This document shows, one piece after another, positions 2,700-17,556 of a DNA stretch of 20,773 bases. Position 1 is the stretch's first letter; each line of letters begins with the position of its first letter. This DNA is from a virus. The DNA is taken from positions 1 to 20,773 of the IMG/VR virus record IMGVR_UViG_3300047643_000077; one strand, given 5' to 3'. A program made the translations under genes and the position numbers. The notes below the pieces were generated by a model. That model ran no database searches. It worked only from the letters and a program-made list of their open reading frames with translations, and was not told the origin of the DNA.

Positions 2700-2736
2700 T
2701 GTCATTGCGAGGCGACCCTCGGGAGCCGTGGCAATC
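2700..2736 (-). repeat. 37-bp GAG-loop hairpin element, inverted copy
   Basis: This is the 37-bp element read on the opposite strand: TGTCATTGCGA, 7-base arm GGCGACC, loop CTC (the complement of GAG), arm GGGAGCC, then GTGGCAATC. Two of the seven stem pairs are mismatched, unlike the other three copies. It faces the copy at 2750-2786, so the pair forms a larger imperfect palindrome from 2699 to 2787. Confidence 0.75.
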
Positions 2737-2749
2737 TCGCAAGACATGA

Positions 2750-2786
2750 GATTACCACGCCGCATGAGATGCGGCTCGTAATGACA
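2750..2786 (+). repeat. 37-bp GAG-loop hairpin element, copy before the 2807 gene
   Basis: Order: GATTACCAC, stem GCCGCAT, loop GAG, stem ATGCGGC, then TCGTAATGACA. The 7-bp stem is perfect. The element ends 20 bases before the start codon at 2807, leaving just room for the AGAAGGAGAG ribosome binding site. Confidence 0.8.
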
Positions 2787-2806
2787 AAGTAGAAGGAGAG
2801 AAATCA

Positions 2807-3289
2807 ATGGACAAGTTAGACCGGGATAAAATGAAGCGCACAAAAGAAGTCGTTAAACTTGACGGCCGTTTGCTTGAAGCATGCAACGAACTGAGGCACA
2901 CGGTTGAACATCCGAATGAGAGTGCGGATATTATTATTGCTAAGGGGATTTACCGCAAGAAAGACCCTAACGCGATTATGACGATTGAATGTGACGGTGT
3001 CGTGGTGGGCTATAAAATCAAGGAATGTTCGCCGCTTGAGATCAATCCGTATTACGACCGGTATGTTTACGTGAGGATGCCCGATTATCGTCTGAAGGAT
3101 TTATCAGACAAGGAACTGGCGGCAATAAAATTTACTGTATTGGATGCGTTCTTTGAGCAGCAGCAGGGAGAGATTCACGTTGAAGTTATCGGGGAAGGCG
3201 CTCTTTTGATGTGGCAGCGGTTCATGGTGGCTTTCGCGTACAAGTATCAGAACGCGACAGTGCAGGTCCCAAAGGGACTACCACAATAA
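2807..3289 (+). CDS. Hypothetical protein between terminase and portal genes
   Basis: The product has 160 residues, preceded by a strong AGAAGGAGAG. I do not recognise the family. The N-terminus is rich in Lys and Asp (MDKLDRDKMKRTKE) and is followed by a likely helix (LLEACNELRHTVE). A mixed alpha/beta middle contains the strands IIIAKGIYRK, AIMTIECDGVVVGYKI and YVYVRMPDY, and a C-terminal helix-strand-helix includes LAAIKFTVLDAFFEQQQ and LLMWQRFMVAFAYKYQ. There is no signal peptide or membrane segment. It is flanked on both sides by 37-bp hairpin repeats. Its place between terminase and portal suggests a virion or packaging accessory protein, but nothing in the sequence shows a specific role. 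Confidence 0.85.
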   Translation: MDKLDRDKMKRTKEVVKLDGRLLEACNELRHTVEHPNESADIIIAKGIYRKKDPNAIMTIECDGVVVGYKIKECSPLEINPYYDRYVYVRMPDYRLKDLSDKELAAIKFTVLDAFFEQQQGEIHVEVIGEGALLMWQRFMVAFAYKYQNATVQVPKGLPQ

Positions 3290-3304
3290 GAAAAGGAAAA
3301 GAAA

Positions 3305-3341
3305 GATTGCCACGGAGCGCGAGGCGCTCCTCGCAATGACA
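3305..3341 (+). repeat. 37-bp GAG-loop hairpin element, copy before portal
   Basis: Order: GATTGCCAC, stem GGAGCGC, loop GAG, stem GCGCTCC, then TCGCAATGACA. The 7-bp stem is perfect but has a different sequence from the other copies. It ends 22 bases before the portal ATG, directly ahead of the GGAAGAGGAAG ribosome binding site. Confidence 0.82.
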
Positions 3342-3363
3342 CGACAGGAAGAGGAAGTAATTT

Positions 3364-5307
3364 ATGGATAACGAAGTAACTCCCACTTCGGGAATCAATA
3401 TTCAGAAAATACAGGAATCCGGCGCTGATGACAAGGTTGTGGAAGTCTATCGCCTTTTGAAGCGGTACAAGGAAGACGCTGACCGGCAGGATTGGGAGAA
3501 ACAGGTCTATAAGCGCGGCTGGGAAGTAGCGTGGGGGAAAAAAGACGCTCTATGGTCAGAAGACGAAAAGAATAAAATGATCCAACGCGGACAGATTCCT
3601 ATTGCCATCAATGACGTAAGCAAAGGAATTCAGGGAGCCGCGGCAGTGGCTACAGCCAATAAGCCCGGGATCAATGTCAAACCCATAGGTTCGTCTGATT
3701 TGTACGTAGCGGAGTTGCTCAAGCGTGGGTTTGATTTTGTGTGGGGGCAGAATAACGGCGGGGAAGTCCTGTTTGATGTGGTGAAGGAATGTAAGACGGG
3801 TTCTCTTGGAGTAATTGATGTCAAGTTTGACGAAACAAAAGGCAAGTTCGGGAAGATCATTTTCCTTTCAGATAATCCATTGGATTACTATTTTGATAAA
3901 AAGTCGCGGCTTGCCAGTAAGGCGGATTCCCATATTATCAAGGCCCATCTGATTACGCGGCAGTATGCCAAAGATAATTACGATGTTACGGATGACGACC
4001 TTGATTTTAATATGGTTCCTCAGGATTCGGAGCCGGGTAAATCATCCGCCGGTCATCCTGGAGAAGACGAATATGCCCGTATGAAGACTTCTGAGGAAAA
4101 GGACAGTCGTGTTGAGAACGATCCAGCCGATGATGCTGATGTTTATGAAATCGAAGCGTGGCTTATCAAGAAGGAGAAAGCATACTCCGTGATGACGGTT
4201 AATCCTCAAACGTCTGCCGTCGAGAAGTTTGATTTTGATACGAGCAAGGAAGCCAAGGCAGCGCAGGAAGAATTGAGCCAGTTTGGATTAAAGGCAACGT
4301 GCAAAGAGAATGTTACCGAAGTCAGAAAACAGCGGATCATTGTCGGAAAGAAACTCATCTCCGAAGAAACCAATCCTTACGGTCTGGATTCCGACGGCGA
4401 TCCGGTTATTCCAAAACTGTTAATCGGCCATGACCGGTCTTACAGCGGCTATTTTGTGGGGCCGACGTACAGGGCAATCGAGATCAGCAAGAGCCGCAAT
4501 AAACGCCGCACGCAGACGGTTTATGTCATTTCAAAGAACATTGACGCGCCTGTCATGATGACAGAAGGCTGCAAATGGGAGAATGATCCCAAATACGGTG
4601 ACAGTCTGAAGGTTCCCAAAGACGCGCCGTTTCCGCCTTCTCGATTGCTTCCTGGGACAACGTCTTCAGAGCTGATGGCGATGGAGCAACGGGATGAAGT
4701 GGCGCTCAATGACGAGTTCGATATGCAGGAAGTGATGAAGGGGAAACTACCTCCGGGCGTTGATTCCGGCAAGCTGGTTATCGCCCTTCAGGATCAGGCC
4801 GGAATGATGTCCACGCCATTCTTAGGTGTAGTGGAATCAACTATTGAGAAAACGGCAAAGGTTATATTTTCTTTAATGCTTCGGCACTGGCCCAGACAGA
4901 TGTGGGAGCGTCTGATTGATCCGGATGAAGTAAGCAACTGGCAACCGGAAAAGGACAAACAGATAGACCCGAATACGGGCGATGCCGTACCTCCCGATCC
5001 TAACGATATTCAGGCCAAATGGATTGCGGCAGTCGATCAGGTGCGACCTGCTGACATTACCAAAGACCCTCCGATTGATCTGGAAGGGCTGCATATCAAG
5101 ATTGTTGCCGGTTCCACGACACCGACAAACAGGATGGCTAAACGGCTGGATGCCATGGAAATGGTGAAGGCCGGTATTTATCCGCCGGAGATCGCTCTTG
5201 ATTATATTGATGACCCGAATGCGGATAAAGCAAAGATATTGTTGCAGCAGCAGCGTCAGTCGGAAATGCAGGCAATGGTTGCCCGCAGCGGAAATATCAG
5301 GGGGTAG
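3364..5307 (+). CDS. P22-like portal protein
   Basis: A 647-residue protein, within the size range of P22-like portals. The N-terminal part has the usual helical entry (VVEVYRLLKRYKEDADRQDWEKQVYKRGWEVAWG) split by basic and aromatic residues, then NDVSKGIQGAAAVATANKPGI and a region IDVKFDE...FLSDNPLDYYFD. The middle carries an acidic insertion (about 215-255), and the C-terminal section includes IEISKSRNKRRTQ and the stem/crown helices after SSELMAMEQRDE. The portal forms the dodecameric DNA channel at one capsid vertex, works with the large terminase and later binds the adaptor. The C-terminus is Gln-rich (LLQQQRQSEMQAM). The start is ATG 3364 with a purine-rich site upstream. The family call rests on sequence style and gene order. 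Confidence 0.88.
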   Translation: MDNEVTPTSGINIQKIQESGADDKVVEVYRLLKRYKEDADRQDWEKQVYKRGWEVAWGKKDALWSEDEKNKMIQRGQIPIAINDVSKGIQGAAAVATANKPGINVKPIGSSDLYVAELLKRGFDFVWGQNNGGEVLFDVVKECKTGSLGVIDVKFDETKGKFGKIIFLSDNPLDYYFDKKSRLASKADSHIIKAHLITRQYAKDNYDVTDDDLDFNMVPQDSEPGKSSAGHPGEDEYARMKTSEEKDSRVENDPADDADVYEIEAWLIKKEKAYSVMTVNPQTSAVEKFDFDTSKEAKAAQEELSQFGLKATCKENVTEVRKQRIIVGKKLISEETNPYGLDSDGDPVIPKLLIGHDRSYSGYFVGPTYRAIEISKSRNKRRTQTVYVISKNIDAPVMMTEGCKWENDPKYGDSLKVPKDAPFPPSRLLPGTTSSELMAMEQRDEVALNDEFDMQEVMKGKLPPGVDSGKLVIALQDQAGMMSTPFLGVVESTIEKTAKVIFSLMLRHWPRQMWERLIDPDEVSNWQPEKDKQIDPNTGDAVPPDPNDIQAKWIAAVDQVRPADITKDPPIDLEGLHIKIVAGSTTPTNRMAKRLDAMEMVKAGIYPPEIALDYIDDPNADKAKILLQQQRQSEMQAMVARSGNIRG

Positions 5308-5311
5308 GATA

Positions 5312-5527
5312 ATGGCAGAATTAACCGAATCAAAAAGAAATAATTTACCGTCATCGGCGTTTGTCTTTCCGGATAGCAGAAAGTATCCGATTCATGACCT
5401 TGCTCATGCGCGTAACGCTTTGGCGCGGGTGTCGGAGTTCGGGACGGCTTCGGAGAAATCGGCAGTGAGGGCAGCGGTAAACAGGAAGTATCCGACACTG
5501 AGAAAGAGACAGACGATAAAAGGGTGA
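5312..5527 (+). CDS. Small basic phage protein (DUF6582-like)
   Basis: The product has 71 residues from ATG 5312, four bases after the portal stop, with AGGGGGTAGG as ribosome binding site. The sequence pattern LPSSAFVFPDSRKYPIHD followed by AHARNALARVS and AAVNRKYPTLRKR is familiar from a short domain found alone or fused to phage head proteins, which I recall as DUF6582-like. The predicted form is a compact, helical, strongly basic domain. Placement directly after the portal fits a minor head or scaffold-associated role. Function is unknown; the frame is open further upstream to 5198 but that part overlaps the portal gene and is not credible. Confidence 0.75.
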   Translation: MAELTESKRNNLPSSAFVFPDSRKYPIHDLAHARNALARVSEFGTASEKSAVRAAVNRKYPTLRKRQTIKG

Positions 5528-5555
5528 TTAATTATATTATAAAAAATTGGGGTTG

Positions 5556-5580
5556 TTTGCTGATCTGATCAATCGGCAGA
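5556..5580 (+). ncRNA. Hairpin upstream of the terminator (possible small structured RNA)
   Basis: TTTGCTGAT (5556-5564) can pair with ATCGGCAGA (5572-5580), nine pairs including two G-U, around a 7-base loop CTGATCA. With the terminator that follows it gives a two-hairpin segment of about 85 bases after the 5312 gene. An AT-rich stretch at 5527-5547 precedes it, but no convincing promoter is seen, so it may simply be the 3' trailer of the portal transcript. Confidence 0.35.
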
Positions 5581-5597
5581 CACGCAAGAAATAACTT

Positions 5598-5640
5598 AAG
5601 CGGCTAGTAGGAGCCTACTCTCTTACTTTGCCGCTTTTTT
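5598..5640 (+). terminator. Rho-independent-type terminator after the portal group
   Basis: The outer stem AAGCGGC (5598-5604) pairs perfectly with GCCGCTT (5630-5636), encloses an inner perfect hairpin AGTAGG-AG-CCTACT (5606-5619), and is followed by a T run (5635-5640). It separates the packaging/portal genes from the scaffold and capsid genes, so termination or attenuation here may set their ratio. Confidence 0.7.
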
Positions 5641-5738
5641 ATTTGCCCCATCCGATTATGCCTTCTGGACGGGCTTTAAATGTCCTGAAACCGGTTACCG
5701 TGGCGACCGCAAGGCCATGAGATTGAAAGAGAGGAATT

Positions 5739-6818
5739 ATGGGACTGGGAGATTTCGCAAAAGAGGAATTCAGCAAGGAAGAGTTGGAGGCTTTGGGAGA
5801 GACTCCGGCTACTGTTGAACCAGAGAAAAAGGAACCGGAAAATCCAGAGCAACCGGAAAAGAAGGTTGAAGAACCTGAAAAACCGGAAGCCCAAACCGAG
5901 AAGAAAGAAGAAACTCCGGAATTATCAACAGAGGAAAAAGCAGTTGCAGAACAAGAAGGCGTCAAACTCGTAACAGAGAACGGTAAGCAGTATCTGATTG
6001 ACGATGAAGGCGCGAAAATACCGGTGGAAAGATGGCGCAAGAACTTTGCAAAGACACACGCTGAAGTTGATACCGCCAAAAAAGCCGCCGAAGAAACAAA
6101 CAGAAAATTAAACCTTCTCAAAGAGTTAGGAGCGGAAAAGTATTACGATCTTTATCCCGATGAAAAACCGGCAAACTATGCGCCTCCGGTAAAGAAAGAC
6201 GAACCGGTGGAAGCCGTTGAAGATTTCAATACAATGATTGTCAATGGCGGCAAGTATAACGGCTGGGCTTTAGGAGACGTGGCAAAAGAAGACCCGATAG
6301 CGGCAAGCCTTATGCTCAATAATTATCTGGAGAGCAAACGGGCCGTCGTTGAAAAGGAATCAAAACGCCAGGCGGATTTTCAGCAGAGTTTTGAGCAGGA
6401 AAGGAATCAGTTTTGTTACAGCAGGGCCAAGGAGCTTTTTAACAAGTCCGATAATATCACGGATGCGGAAAAAGCGCAGGTGGTTAAAGTCTACGAGGAT
6501 TTATCCAAGTGGATGATCGCCAACAAAAAGAGCCATTACAACATGGAAGACGCCTATGCCCTGATGAACAAAGACCAGATTATCCAGTCCAAAGTTGCCG
6601 AAGCCTCAAAAGCCGCAATCGAGAAACTTACGGCGCCGGGCGCGAAGTCTATCGGCAATGTTGCCAGCGAAGGCAAACAAACGGGTTTTGAATCCTATTT
6701 AACGATGACGGAAGGCCAGTTGACGGATATCATTGATAATATGACGGATAAAGAATTCAAGATTTTCTTAAAAGACGCTCCGAAAGAATTAAGGGATAAA
6801 TATCCCGGCATATTCTGA
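5739..6818 (+). CDS. Putative scaffolding protein
   Basis: The product has 359 residues from ATG 5739 with AGAGAGGAA as ribosome binding site. The first 75 residues are a low-complexity, highly charged Glu/Lys/Pro stretch with repeats such as EPEKKEPENPEQPEKK. A helical middle follows (KNFAKTHAEVDTAKKAAEETNRKLNLL, then EKESKRQADFQQSFEQERNQF), and the C-terminal region again is charged and helical, ending ELRDKYPGIF. No signal peptide or enzyme motif is present. Length, charge, coiled-coil potential and the place just before the major capsid gene are those of internal scaffolds, which guide procapsid assembly and leave or are degraded. The DNA from 5641 to 5738 is a 98-bp leader with no gene. 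Confidence 0.8.
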   Translation: MGLGDFAKEEFSKEELEALGETPATVEPEKKEPENPEQPEKKVEEPEKPEAQTEKKEETPELSTEEKAVAEQEGVKLVTENGKQYLIDDEGAKIPVERWRKNFAKTHAEVDTAKKAAEETNRKLNLLKELGAEKYYDLYPDEKPANYAPPVKKDEPVEAVEDFNTMIVNGGKYNGWALGDVAKEDPIAASLMLNNYLESKRAVVEKESKRQADFQQSFEQERNQFCYSRAKELFNKSDNITDAEKAQVVKVYEDLSKWMIANKKSHYNMEDAYALMNKDQIIQSKVAEASKAAIEKLTAPGAKSIGNVASEGKQTGFESYLTMTEGQLTDIIDNMTDKEFKIFLKDAPKELRDKYPGIF

Positions 6819-6854
6819 CTTTTTGTGAAGGCCGACACATAAGGAGTTTTAAAA

Positions 6855-7844
6855 ATGGCTGATTTTACATTTACGACAGGCAACGCCCTGACCCGCAAGG
6901 CATGGGCTAAAAAGTGGTGGATGGAAGCAAAGACGACATCGTACTTTTACGAGAACGGTTTTGTAGGAACTTCCGACCAGAATATCATCGTAGAATTCCC
7001 CGATCTTGAAAAAGAACAGGGCGACGTTTTAACCATCGGGCAAATCCGCGAGCTATCAGGAGGAGGCGTGCCCAATGACAATATCATGGAAGGCAACGAA
7101 GAAGCGCCTTCGACTTACGACAATTCAATCACGCTGACCCAGATACGAAACGCGGTTCGTACCGCAGGACGTGAAACCGAAATGCGGCCGGCTGACAACA
7201 AGATCAGGGAATATGCCAAGGAGCTTTTGCAGCGCTGGATGGCGGCAAAGATCGATCAGGACATCTTCACGGCGTTGGGAAATAATCCGACCAAGGTTAT
7301 TTATCCCTCCGGCGCCACGACCACCGCGACAATCGCGGCCGGTAATTATATGACGCTGTCTTTGATCTCTCAATGCGTTACCTACGGACGCAAAGCCAAG
7401 CCTCTGATTATAGGCCCCACGGTCAAAGGAAAGGCGATGAATGGCGTTATCGTTATGTCGCCTGATCAGTCCTATGACCTATCAGAACGGGATGCGGCAT
7501 GGGCACAGGCACAGCGTGAAGCACAGAAACGCGGCGATGATAATCCCATTTTCGGGATAGCCCTCGGCGTTCACAAGAACTGCGCAATTCACGACCACCA
7601 GCGTGTGGCGACTGTCACCAACTGGGGTGCAGGCGCGAATCTGGCAGGCGCAACGGCGCTCTTTATGGGTATCGGCGCGGGTTCAGTGGCTTATTCCAAA
7701 AAGAAAATCTGGGAAGAGAAGACTTTTGATTACCAGAATAAGGCCGGTTTCTGTATCGGCTCGATTTACGGCATGAGCAAGAATGTGTTTAACACTGCGG
7801 ATATCGCGGTGATTGCCGTGCGTACATATAGAACAAACAATTAA
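6855..7844 (+). CDS. Major capsid protein, N4-gp56/DUF4043-like family
   Basis: The product has 329 residues from ATG 6855, preceded by AAGGAG. The pattern is typical of the N4 gp56/DUF4043 capsid group with the HK97 fold: an N-terminal arm (RKAWAKKWWMEAKTTSYF), a glycine-rich turn followed by DNIMEGNEEAPSTYDNSITL, the helix RAADNK-type segment RPADNKIREYAKELLQRWMAAKIDQDIF (about 115-140), then VIVMSPDQSYDL and AQREAQKRGDDNPIFG. The C-terminal beta region includes ATALFMGIGAGSVAYSKKK and ends in ADIAVIAVRTY. It forms the icosahedral shell. A predicted three-way-junction RNA and no further terminator follow it. Family assignment is from memory of its relatives. Confidence 0.88.
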   Translation: MADFTFTTGNALTRKAWAKKWWMEAKTTSYFYENGFVGTSDQNIIVEFPDLEKEQGDVLTIGQIRELSGGGVPNDNIMEGNEEAPSTYDNSITLTQIRNAVRTAGRETEMRPADNKIREYAKELLQRWMAAKIDQDIFTALGNNPTKVIYPSGATTTATIAAGNYMTLSLISQCVTYGRKAKPLIIGPTVKGKAMNGVIVMSPDQSYDLSERDAAWAQAQREAQKRGDDNPIFGIALGVHKNCAIHDHQRVATVTNWGAGANLAGATALFMGIGAGSVAYSKKKIWEEKTFDYQNKAGFCIGSIYGMSKNVFNTADIAVIAVRTYRTNN

Positions 7845-7852
7845 CGGATTAT

Positions 7853-7909
7853 GGCGGCTAGTTTGCACTGGCCGTGCAGACGATAAGGGGGTCTCCCGCC
7901 CCTGCCGCC
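7853..7909 (+). ncRNA. Predicted three-way-junction RNA between major capsid gene and next gene
   Basis: A closing stem GGCGGC (7853-7858) pairs with GCCGCC (7904-7909). It contains two hairpins: TGCAC-TGGCC-GTGCA (7864-7878) and AGGGG, 8-base loop, CCCCT (7886-7903). There is no T run, so it is not a standard terminator. It could block 3' exonucleases to stabilise the capsid message, or regulate the 7944 gene, whose ribosome binding site lies 11 bases from its ATG. Structure was paired by eye. Confidence 0.45.
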
Positions 7910-7943
7910 GCCCGAACACAGGGAGATTGAGGATAATATTATT

Positions 7944-8561
7944 ATGGCAGCACCGAAAAAGATAGACCCGGTCGCGGGAGAAGGGAAACCGAATGACGAC
8001 GTACTCAAAGGAATAGGAGAACTTAATTTTCAGCCGATACCGCTAAAAGCGGCGCGTGTTTCGCGTCCGTTTGACGGCTATCCGATGAAGAAAGTCACCA
8101 TAGGCACAATGGAAACATATCTGGCCTACGTGGTGGCTCTTAATCCTACAGTGGCCGTTCGGTTAGACCCCTCAAACCGGAAAGTGAAAACGAAGGATGG
8201 AACTTTTGAGCAGGTGAAAAATACTCATGCCCGTTTTATCCGGGATTATGAGGAAAATGAAAACACCGAAGTCGTCTTTGACCGCATCATGGAAATCGGC
8301 GGCAAAGAATACTTCTGCGCAATCGTTCCGTCACACAACGTCCGCGCCCAACTCTGCTTTAGATACGAGGATAAAAACAAGCGCATTGTCGTCGATTCCA
8401 ATTATTTATTTCTGGATACGGCACAGGATCAGCACCTTAAGCGCGTATTTGAGCAGATCATCAACCCGAAGCTGCAACTTGAGCGCGAGGCGGCATTTAT
8501 AGCCGGTGAGTCCACCCAGGACGCCGGAGAATCAAAAACTCTGACCGAGGACGAGGTCTAG
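7944..8561 (+). CDS. Hypothetical virion-associated protein after the major capsid
   Basis: A 205-residue protein I do not recognise. The N-terminus is flexible and charged (MAAPKKIDPVAGEGKPNDD); the core has strands and helices such as MKKVTIGTMETYLAYVVAL, TVAVRLDPSNRKVKTKDGTFEQV, HARFIRDYEEN and EYFCAIVPSHNVRAQLCFRYEDKNKRIVVD. The C-terminal tail is acidic (about 180-205, ending TLTEDEV). No signal peptide or membrane helix is present. It starts 99 bp after the capsid gene, with GAGG (7929-7932) as a weak and rather distant ribosome binding site. Position suggests a head-completion or decoration role; this is inference from gene order alone. Confidence 0.82.
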   Translation: MAAPKKIDPVAGEGKPNDDVLKGIGELNFQPIPLKAARVSRPFDGYPMKKVTIGTMETYLAYVVALNPTVAVRLDPSNRKVKTKDGTFEQVKNTHARFIRDYEENENTEVVFDRIMEIGGKEYFCAIVPSHNVRAQLCFRYEDKNKRIVVDSNYLFLDTAQDQHLKRVFEQIINPKLQLEREAAFIAGESTQDAGESKTLTEDEV

Positions 8562-8565
8562 AATT

Positions 8566-9216
8566 ATGGAATCTCAGATAAAACCACAGGGGTTATCCCA
8601 ACGCAACCTTGTTGACCTGCTTTATATGATCGTGGCGGCGATACAGGGGATTTGCACCAAACTCGATGCCGATGCCGGCGTGAATCACAATACGCACGTG
8701 GCGAACTGTTTTACGGCGAAATTCAACGGCAAGATCGTTGATTCGAGAGACAACAAGGTAACGAACTACATAGCAGCCAAAGACCGGTATTGGAACTCTA
8801 TCAAACCGGTAGGCGTTTCAGATAAAGGCCTAAATAGCATACTCTATCAGATATTCGATATGATGAATACGCTGACGGCGCAACTCGACGCAGAAGGCCT
8901 TGGAGATGCCAATTACAATGCTTTAGTCTATGTAGCGATTTATCTCTGGATGGTGACAAATCAGGAAGGTAACACCCTTGGAAACGGCAACACGTATTGG
9001 TTCAATCCGCAGGGGATGACGAATCAGCGGCATTTGATTGATTGCCTGGCGGCGATCGTTCATTCGATTACCGTGCTGACACAGAAGCTTGACGCGGATG
9101 CAACCGTAACAAACACAAATTATACGGCGTTGTGGTACACGGCAACGATTATCATGGTGATTGAAGATTGCCATGGTAATCAGTACGGCAATAACTCCAC
9201 AGCGTACACACCTTAA
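8566..9216 (+). CDS. Hypothetical protein built from three copies of a helical KLDAD-type motif
   Basis: The product has 216 residues from an ATG four bases after the previous stop. Three related segments are visible: residues about 10-47 (LVDLLYMIVAAIQGICTKLD), 84-127 (LNSILYQIFDMMNTLTAQLD) and 151-195 (LIDCLAAIVHSITVLTQKLD). Each ends in a D-A-D/E turn followed by a V/L-x-(D/N)-x-N-Y-like segment. Each unit is a predicted helix, the KLDAD turn, then a second helix with aromatic residues. The 45-residue linkers contain NTYWFNPQGM-type loops. There is no signal peptide. I recall similar repeats in other phages with this capsid type, located next to the capsid gene, but no function. A trimeric or pseudo-trimeric structural protein is plausible. 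Confidence 0.82.
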   Translation: MESQIKPQGLSQRNLVDLLYMIVAAIQGICTKLDADAGVNHNTHVANCFTAKFNGKIVDSRDNKVTNYIAAKDRYWNSIKPVGVSDKGLNSILYQIFDMMNTLTAQLDAEGLGDANYNALVYVAIYLWMVTNQEGNTLGNGNTYWFNPQGMTNQRHLIDCLAAIVHSITVLTQKLDADATVTNTNYTALWYTATIIMVIEDCHGNQYGNNSTAYTP

Positions 9217-9218
9217 AC

Positions 9219-9233
9219 GGCATTTTAAATGCC
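9219..9233. other. Short palindrome between the 8566 and 9253 genes
   Basis: GGCATTTTAAATGCC is a 15-base inverted repeat followed by ATTTTAT. It could be a weak hairpin or attenuator but the stem is AT-rich and lacks a clean T run. Low support for function. Confidence 0.25.
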
Positions 9234-9252
9234 ATTTTATATGGAGGATATG

Positions 9253-10125
9253 ATGAAGAAACAATTTTGGTTAATCAGTTTGATTTTAATGTTGACGGCA
9301 GTCTTTGCGCTGCCTGCCTTCGCGTATAATGATTTTTATGCGCAGGTTGTAAAGCGGGACAACACCGCTACGGGCAATCTTGCTTTAACGCCCATTACCA
9401 CGGGAATAACCTATCAGGTGCTGGATGCAGGAACCAACACCATTTCCACCCTGACAAAATTCGCGGATAATTCCTATACATCGGTCACTAATCCGGTGAC
9501 TCCCACAGTCTTTGCGGCTTCAACCGGCGGCAACGGAAACATTAAGTTCCGGAACGCTAATACAACCGTTGACATTATCGTCACGGACACCAACGGCGGC
9601 TATACGGCTGTGGTGAAGGGATTTTCACTCAACATGCACACCATTGTCATTGATGAAACTCCCAACATGCCTCACCACGGCATTATATGGTTTGCGCCGT
9701 CCACGGCAGAAACGAGTACCGGCGTTTCTTTCGTGCCAGATACTTTTGTCGGGGATGTGCGCGTGCAGGTGATTACAACGGATTCGGCCAAGACTATTTC
9801 TGTAGGTCTGCTATCCACACAGCCAAACGGCAACGCAACCGGTTTTATCACGGGACTTTTGATGACTACCGCCGGATATGTCGCGGACACCTCCGTTTCT
9901 ACCAAAGGAACAAACGGACAGTATTACCCAGCCAGCACCTACGGCTCTTTCCTGTATACCAGTACTACCGGATCGGATTCGGCCAATGTCGATTTGGTGG
10001 GCGGTAAAACCTATCTTGGCTATATCGTAACAGGGTCGAACGCGACAACGATTTCATACACTGGAAGCGGCGGAACAACCACGGCAGCGGGTTATATCCA
10101 TTACTGGTTTACCCGGATGAAATAA
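9253..10125 (+). CDS. Secreted-type beta-rich phage structural protein with signal peptide
   Basis: The product has 290 residues from ATG 9253, chosen because GGAGG (9243-9247) is five bases away; an ATG at 9250 is too close. The N-terminus MKKQFWLISLILMLTAVFAL followed by PAFA is a textbook Sec signal peptide with cleavage predicted after AFA (residue 23). The mature part has an Ig-like strand pattern (about 25-130, ITYQVLDAGTNTISTLTKF), then HHGIIWFAPSTAETSTGVSF (about 142-161), a segment I recall from structural proteins coded next to N4-gp56-type capsid genes, and a beta-rich, Thr/Gly-rich C-terminus ending HYWFTRMK. A virion surface or decoration role fits; the signal peptide is the odd point. 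A 37-bp hairpin repeat follows four bases after the stop. Confidence 0.82.
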   Translation: MKKQFWLISLILMLTAVFALPAFAYNDFYAQVVKRDNTATGNLALTPITTGITYQVLDAGTNTISTLTKFADNSYTSVTNPVTPTVFAASTGGNGNIKFRNANTTVDIIVTDTNGGYTAVVKGFSLNMHTIVIDETPNMPHHGIIWFAPSTAETSTGVSFVPDTFVGDVRVQVITTDSAKTISVGLLSTQPNGNATGFITGLLMTTAGYVADTSVSTKGTNGQYYPASTYGSFLYTSTTGSDSANVDLVGGKTYLGYIVTGSNATTISYTGSGGTTTAAGYIHYWFTRMK

Positions 10126-10129
10126 ACAA

Positions 10130-10166
10130 GATTGCCACGGCGGTTGAGAACCGCCTCGCAATGACA
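10130..10166 (+). repeat. 37-bp GAG-loop hairpin element, copy before lysis module
   Basis: Order: GATTGCCAC, stem GGCGGTT, loop GAG, stem AACCGCC, then TCGCAATGACA. The flanks are identical to those of the copy at 3305-3341 while the stem differs completely, with both arms changed in step. It ends 23 bases before the ATG at 10190. Confidence 0.82.
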
Positions 10167-17473: not shown

Positions 17474-17556
17474 AAATATTTCCACCTCCGTCACTACGTG
17501 ATACCTCCGCCTGCGGCGGACAGATAAAGAAGGAGAGAGGTTTTGAAAATGGTTAA
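17461..17556 (+). CDS. Possible 31-residue peptide with PPPSLRDT motif, encoded across a repeat
   Basis: A TTG at 17461 is preceded by GGAGGGG (17446-17452) at normal spacing. It opens a frame of 31 codons that includes LKIFPPPSLRDTSACGG and ends in the first codons of the tail fibre gene. It parallels the 21-residue frame at 2533; the two share L-K-x-x-PPPSLRDT-x-A-x-GG, with only third-position changes in PPPSLRDT. It could be a micro-gene or a coincidental open frame of a mobile repeat. Translation is unproven. Confidence 0.25.
   Translation: MAVLKIFPPPSLRDTSACGGQIKKERGFENG
17479..17522 (+). repeat. 44-bp palindromic element, copy 2
   Basis: The second copy differs from the copy at 2551-2594 at nine of 44 positions. 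Hairpin TCAC-TAC-GTGA (17491-17501) replaces TCGC-TTC-GCGA with a compensated base pair, and CCGC-CT-GCGG (17507-17516) keeps its stem while the loop changes. It ends 26 bases before the tail fibre ATG. Confidence 0.75.

Follow-up and report, generated by a model that had tools for sequence, protein, structure and literature searches.

A probable mobile CGTC/TGTC-tagged REP element between the virion genes of a P22-like phage and in bacteria of about 20 phyla

What are four hairpins with a common outline and different stems doing among the head and packaging genes of one phage? The question is raised by a viral stretch of 20,773 nucleotides (IMG/VR record IMGVR_UViG_3300047643_000077), hereafter the window, in which the pattern ATTGCCAC-N7-GAG-N7-TCGCAATGACA occurs at exactly four sites: 2700–2735 (−), 2751–2786 (+), 3306–3341 (+) and 10131–10166 (+), each 37 bp long with the leading G. 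The search bears out the four 37-bp copies with a common frame reported by the initial annotation, and the chance resemblance which it had allowed for finds no support in 100 shuffles, where 0 sites are expected. All four copies are intergenic and lie within the head/packaging gene block of a P22-like phage, whose capsid protein is at most ~32% identical to those of named phages. No DNA similar to the 2546–2806 cluster was found among the INPHARED phages, and an Rfam scan of the window gave zero matches at the gathering score. The features are as follows.

462–1091: small terminase
1091–2545: large terminase
2700–2736, minus strand: copy 1 (inverted), loop GAG, with the TGTC tag at 2700–2703 on the plus strand; upper stem GGCTCCC/GGGTCGCC with tandem T·C/C·T (on the tag strand, G·A/A·G)
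2737–2749: dimer spacer of 13 nt, TCGCAAGACATGA, kept with the dimer in the related phages L008, L250, L251 and L252
2750–2786, plus strand: copy 2, foot ATTAC/GTAAT (compensated), upper stem GCCGCAT/ATGCGGC, loop GAG
2700–2786: head-to-head dimer of copies 1 and 2, TGTC tags outside, resembling a REPIN-like mobile unit
3305–3341, plus strand: copy 3, stem GGAGCGC/GCGCTCC, between gene 3 (stop 3289) and the portal gene (start 3364)
3364–5307: portal, P22-like
6855–7844: major capsid
10130–10166, plus strand: copy 4, stem GGCGGTT/AACCGCC, 4 nt past the stop codon at 10125

The stems of copies 2, 3 and 4 are perfectly paired, as first described, and three further statements of that description hold in part. 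The flanks are constant except in copy 2, where the foot ATTAC/GTAAT replaces ATTGC/GCAAT; since this change is compensated, the flanks covary too. The two mismatches of the inverted copy are present, but they are a tandem TC/TC motif common to the subfamily rather than decay, and the same imperfect stem recurs in related phages and in four genomes of the probable host order (G052, G079, G021, G095). Finally, the 37-bp length and the GAG loop are fixed in the window lineage only. In other lineages the same frame spans 27 to ~50 bp, and the two properties characterize a lineage subtype, not the whole family.

The frame that recurs across lineages is RGATTGC-NNC-hairpin-TCGCAATGACA, or, on the other strand, 5'-(T/C)GTC-ATTGC-GA-upper hairpin-GNN-GCAAT-CY, and conservation of the columns stops abruptly at RGATTGC...GCAATGACA. 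The GTC beside the foot is nearly invariant, with a T preceding it in 87% of the sampled copies and a C, giving CGTC tags, in genome G184. On this tag strand the stem starts with AT (ATTGC...GCAAT) and is followed by a short unpaired tail, CY(C); a foot of 5 bp leads through the internal loop into an upper stem of 2 to ~13 bp, closed by a loop of usually 3–4 nt. Judged by its sequence, the element read on the tag strand is a CGTC/TGTC-tagged REP. The unit extends from the unpaired (T/C)GTC tag to the short tail past GCAAT. Its foot, ATTGC/GCAAT, is constant and leads into an internal loop that is asymmetric, while the upper hairpin is free in sequence and length provided that it is paired.

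The element usually occurs as head-to-head dimers with the tags outside, which are able to fold into one long hairpin. The genome of Mucilaginibacter sp. dw_454 (G012) holds ~340 copies, mostly as heterodimers with a conserved spacer, and among 100 matches listed there are 36 tag-outside dimers versus 0 tag-inside, with spacers mostly of 17–26 nt. The sequenced dimers of this genome have the frame and spacer in common but not the flanks, which delimits the unit as TGTC...GACA. Sampled stretches of G184 give 15:0 in favour of tag-outside dimers, plus 10 head-to-tail pairs, and tag-outside dimers also outnumber tag-inside ones at mixed loci. Target duplication and replication-strand bias were looked for as direct traces of single-stranded transposition and none was shown, any strand bias being cancelled by the dimers; an apparent strand bias in G184 was likewise rejected, its sampled stretches containing 60 plus-strand and 55 minus-strand copies.

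Could the hairpins nevertheless serve the operon in which they lie? A cis-acting RNA hairpin acting as mRNA stabiliser, processing site or attenuator, its folding selected at each junction, would suit copies that stand between co-directional genes, one of them just past a stop codon and three of the four in the same orientation; effects on mRNA stability have been proposed for other REPs (Di Nocera et al. 2013, PMC3733652). Against this, phage relatives about 88% identical to the window lack copies or carry them elsewhere. The homologue of the 2700–2786 dimer follows the portal gene in related phages, versus the terminase in the window. The copy 3 junction is empty in L251 and L262, and copy 4 recurs in L251 and L008 at the equivalent position with its stem unchanged, the junction being without a copy in L266, L265 and L250. 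One relative, L254, even carries a copy inside a coding sequence: at 8652–8687 an in-frame insertion of 13 codons adds EIATAPKGRLAMT to gene 7, the homologue of window gene 7944–8561, a situation in a virion-block gene that is reminiscent of the Rickettsia palindromic elements. Comparison of these genomes establishes that copies occupy differing sites in close relatives. Like intrinsic terminators, the copies can be GC-rich hairpins past a stop codon, but they are mobile, have their frame in both orientations and are followed by no T-run, and a terminator scan found none on the plus strand at any copy. What looks by eye like an ordinary intrinsic terminator, GCGGC...GCCGC with a T-run behind it, stands at 5590–5640 of the window, where the portal region gives way to gene 5739.

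The kind of pairing bears on the same question. The earlier proposal that the hairpin itself is maintained is upheld: in 83 distinct GAG elements the arms are Watson–Crick paired at 83.6% of positions versus 51.5% with reshuffled arms (maximum 57.5%). The unpaired positions in this set are non-random: T·C and C·T account for 57/95, and many of these form a tandem TC/TC at pairs 4–5 or 2–3. This tandem, which is GA/GA on the opposite strand, is present in 22 of the 83 elements, including homologous copies of related phages, and its reverse is never seen. Over all families, G·A mismatches lie on the TGTC-starting strand in 73 loci versus 4 on the other, and GNA triloops on the tag strand in 69 loci versus 1, which argues that the tag strand is the folded one. 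All four bases are found at N of the Mucilaginibacter loop (GTA, GCA, GGA, GAA); the GAG subtype of the window phage is without the GNA triloop. For the GNA loop the best-known example is d(GCGAAGC), a DNA mini-hairpin of extraordinary stability that resists nucleases (as cited in PMC10527192).

Is the folded strand DNA or RNA? The orientation of the tag strand relative to genes shows no bias (57:51), and the GAG set contains G·T and A·C mismatches in similar numbers (11 versus 14), leaving no wobble signature of RNA; together these observations favour DNA over RNA. Strand asymmetry in the absence of an orientation bias points to recognition of a single-stranded DNA hairpin rather than an RNA, although an RNA copied off the tag strand would account for the asymmetry as well, and the missing orientation bias is the sole counter to it. 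Folding energies do not separate the two, since both strands fold well and the tag strand is favoured under RNA and DNA parameters alike, a preference which in part reflects the constant foot. Both strands folding well suits an RNA of the operon, but with the missing bias and wobble signature added to the shifting sites in relatives, we consider the cis-acting RNA hairpin unlikely. A secondary effect on RNA is possible, many copies being near gene ends.

How do the stems come to differ while remaining paired? The initial annotation suggested that the stem may be rewritten whenever the element moves, and the four window copies do have unrelated stems. Identical stems, however, stand at unrelated loci: four genomes have AACGCCT/AGGCGTT, GACGCCT/AGGCGTC occupies 8 places in the genome G079, and most copies that share a stem lie in unrelated surroundings, both within and between genomes. 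Sites with 79–98% identical flanks retain the stem, once together with a shared mismatch (AACGCCT/AGGCTTT in two genomes, flanks 98% identical), and dimers at differing junctions retain the imperfect arm. Writing of the stem anew at each insertion is already refuted as a general rule, and we give it almost no credence. At one pair of orthologous sites the stems differ by a single uncompensated base, and the homologous dimers in relatives have GCCGCGC/GCGCGGC versus GCCGCAT/ATGCGGC in the window, with two compensated pairs changed. Because stems recur, are kept by orthologues and show compensated changes in homologous dimers, we infer that a new copy inherits its stem and that stems then drift from one copy to another. 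Stems in multiple copies have fewer mismatches than single-copy stems, weak evidence (p = 0.03) of the kind expected if only folded copies spread.

A mutational process alone might also keep the arms paired: template switching between the two arms, in which one arm is rewritten from the other as in the correction of quasi-palindromes, would need neither selection nor an enzyme. It would account for stems of any sequence and for the two changed pairs of the homologous dimers, which are adjacent and lie at the stem tip. The uncorrected AACGCCT/AGGCTTT mismatch that lasts at orthologous sites speaks against such correction, as does the TC/TC tandem, retained and not corrected, and the process explains neither copy number nor dimers, nor why the GA and GNA motifs are specific to one strand. 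We therefore regard this explanation as improbable.

The distribution of the element is far wider than the phage. When bacterial genome contigs were searched for nothing but the frame (GATTGCNAC, gap 8–34, CGCAATGACA), a paired core was present in 94 of 117 contig stretches among the matches listed, in about 20 phyla, some of whose labels may be wrong because most records are metagenome bins. The phyla among these matches include Pseudomonadota, Bacillota, Bacteroidota, Chloroflexota, several Patescibacteria, 'Deltaproteobacteria', Nitrospirota, Atribacterota, Melainabacteria, Elusimicrobiota, Spirochaetota, Campylobacterota, Verrucomicrobiota and Actinomycetota, among others. Copy numbers in 20 whole genomes range from 8 to 522 per genome versus 0 for a reversed-pattern control, so that the many copies with paired but varied stems anticipated for a mobile REP-like element are indeed there, and that interpretation is supported. 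In a draw of 61 Bacteroidota genomes (centre included) the element was present in 14. The 37-bp GAG form was found in 20 viral stretches and in 35/155 genomes from the order to which HGW-Deltaproteobacteria-1 belongs. Viruses and this order have three sequences exactly in common, among them the 3305 copy, whose 34-mer recurs exactly at G054:C30:115531; the phage thus shares elements with the order, which probably includes its host.

Among known repeats, the closest are the CGTC-tagged REPs, which according to Di Nocera et al. (2013, PMC3733652) include Neisseria dRS3 and Rickettsia RPE-4 and RPE-6, have a single stem of 8–9 bp with loops of 4–5 nt, and come from 5 phyla. Both groups have an unpaired CGTC (often TGTC) tag at one end, a stem starting with AT and a short tail; both form predominantly head-to-head dimers (tail-to-tail rare), are mostly intergenic with some intragenic copies, and have no dedicated transposase. 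The present element differs in its 5-bp foot, conserved asymmetric internal loop, upper hairpin of variable length and loops of 3–4 nt, and in its occurrence in about 20 phyla and phages; as the four published families were compared by description, it may prove identical with one of them. We therefore treat it as a variant of the CGTC-tagged REPs: tag, AT start, tail, dimer type and lack of a transposase match, and stem/loop geometry differs. What is new is a CGTC-type REP in a phage and a spread far beyond that described. A literature search did not find a paper describing the RGATTGC-NNC-hairpin-TCGCAATGACA frame, and searches with sequence fragments returned primer noise only. MITEs are likewise short, non-coding, palindromic and mobile in trans; the present element is far shorter, no transposon-like terminal inverted repeats with target duplication were seen, and a cognate transposase was not found.

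What could mobilise such an element? A classical REP moved in trans by a RAYT (TnpAREP, a Y1 transposase) would have the same architecture, with a 4-nt tag, a foot, a bulge or internal loop, an upper stem free in sequence and REPIN-like inverted dimers as the mobile unit (PMC8266576; PMC3733652). The tag here, however, is TGTC/CGTC and not GTAG or GTRG (GTGG), and the nearby Y1 transposase envisaged by the initial annotation did not appear: in 20 element-bearing genomes, 28 of 30 Y1 (PF01797) loci have no element in flanks of up to 1.5 kb, and the two that an element adjoins are both sub-threshold matches. A Y1 match is absent from 9 of the 20 genomes, several of them element-rich, though draft genomes may miss genes. 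Mobilisation by a RAYT accordingly seems to us quite improbable. IS110, a candidate partner by analogy with dRS3, was also rejected, its genes (PF01548) being few and none adjoined by an element. Thus neither of the two transposase families examined adjoins the element, and PMC3733652 describes the CGTC repeats without a mobilising enzyme and reports no transposase for them. The nearest experimental parallel comes from E. coli TnpAREP, for which the tag, lower-stem bases and the unpaired bulge are required but the upper stem and the loop can be swapped for others (PMC8266576); the pattern seen here is what would be expected from an enzyme with a similar footprint.

We hypothesize, and consider it probable, that the hairpins are a non-autonomous mobile CGTC/TGTC-tagged REP, whose single-stranded tag strand folds and is copied by an enzyme acting in trans while the paired stems drift. 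The tag strand (5'-TGTCATTGCGA...) would be exposed as single-stranded DNA during replication or repair and would then fold. A putative cell enzyme would read the tag, foot and internal loop and, as the pattern of change suggests, ignore upper-stem sequence; a new intergenic site would then receive a copy of the hairpin or dimer. As only well-folded copies would spread, stems would drift by stepwise compensated changes with the foot fixed, and the phage would swap copies with its host lineage and tolerate them between virion genes. A more tentative extension, possible but rather doubtful, supposes a single conserved enzyme system, independent of RAYT, that either exists throughout about 20 phyla or has passed between them many times, and that uses phages as carriers. 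It would copy hairpins of single-stranded DNA with a CGTC/TGTC foot and leave the upper stem unread, and tandem sheared G·A pairs and GNA triloops on the tag strand would be its structural signature.

With one foot common to Patescibacteria, Bacteroidota and phages, the idea of a shared enzyme can be put to a direct test. Within the phage genus, close relatives differ in which sites are filled and which are empty, the strand specificity of the motifs indicates which strand is read and as what, and Mucilaginibacter (G012) provides a good cultured-genus model for the mobilising enzyme. Such hairpins between phage genes should not be taken for operon-specific RNA regulators.

Other repeats occupy the intergenic gaps of these phages. 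A second hairpin family, TGTCCACCTCC...GCCAGCGGAGGACA, at 2551–2594 and 17480–17522 of the window, likewise starts with TGTC, and in related phages its frame stays fixed around an inner hairpin that varies; matches to its core came from 11 viral stretches, nearly all relatives of the window phage. A third palindrome, TGTAGGGCGCG...CCCTACA at 2600–2655, has homologues at other junctions of related phages, and arrays of the short repeats ACGGGTCTAAAGACCCGGACTACGAAAGATTAA and GTGAAGGGTGAA/TTCACCATTCAC lie in intergenic gaps of L251, L252 and L265 (for example L252 15750–15860).
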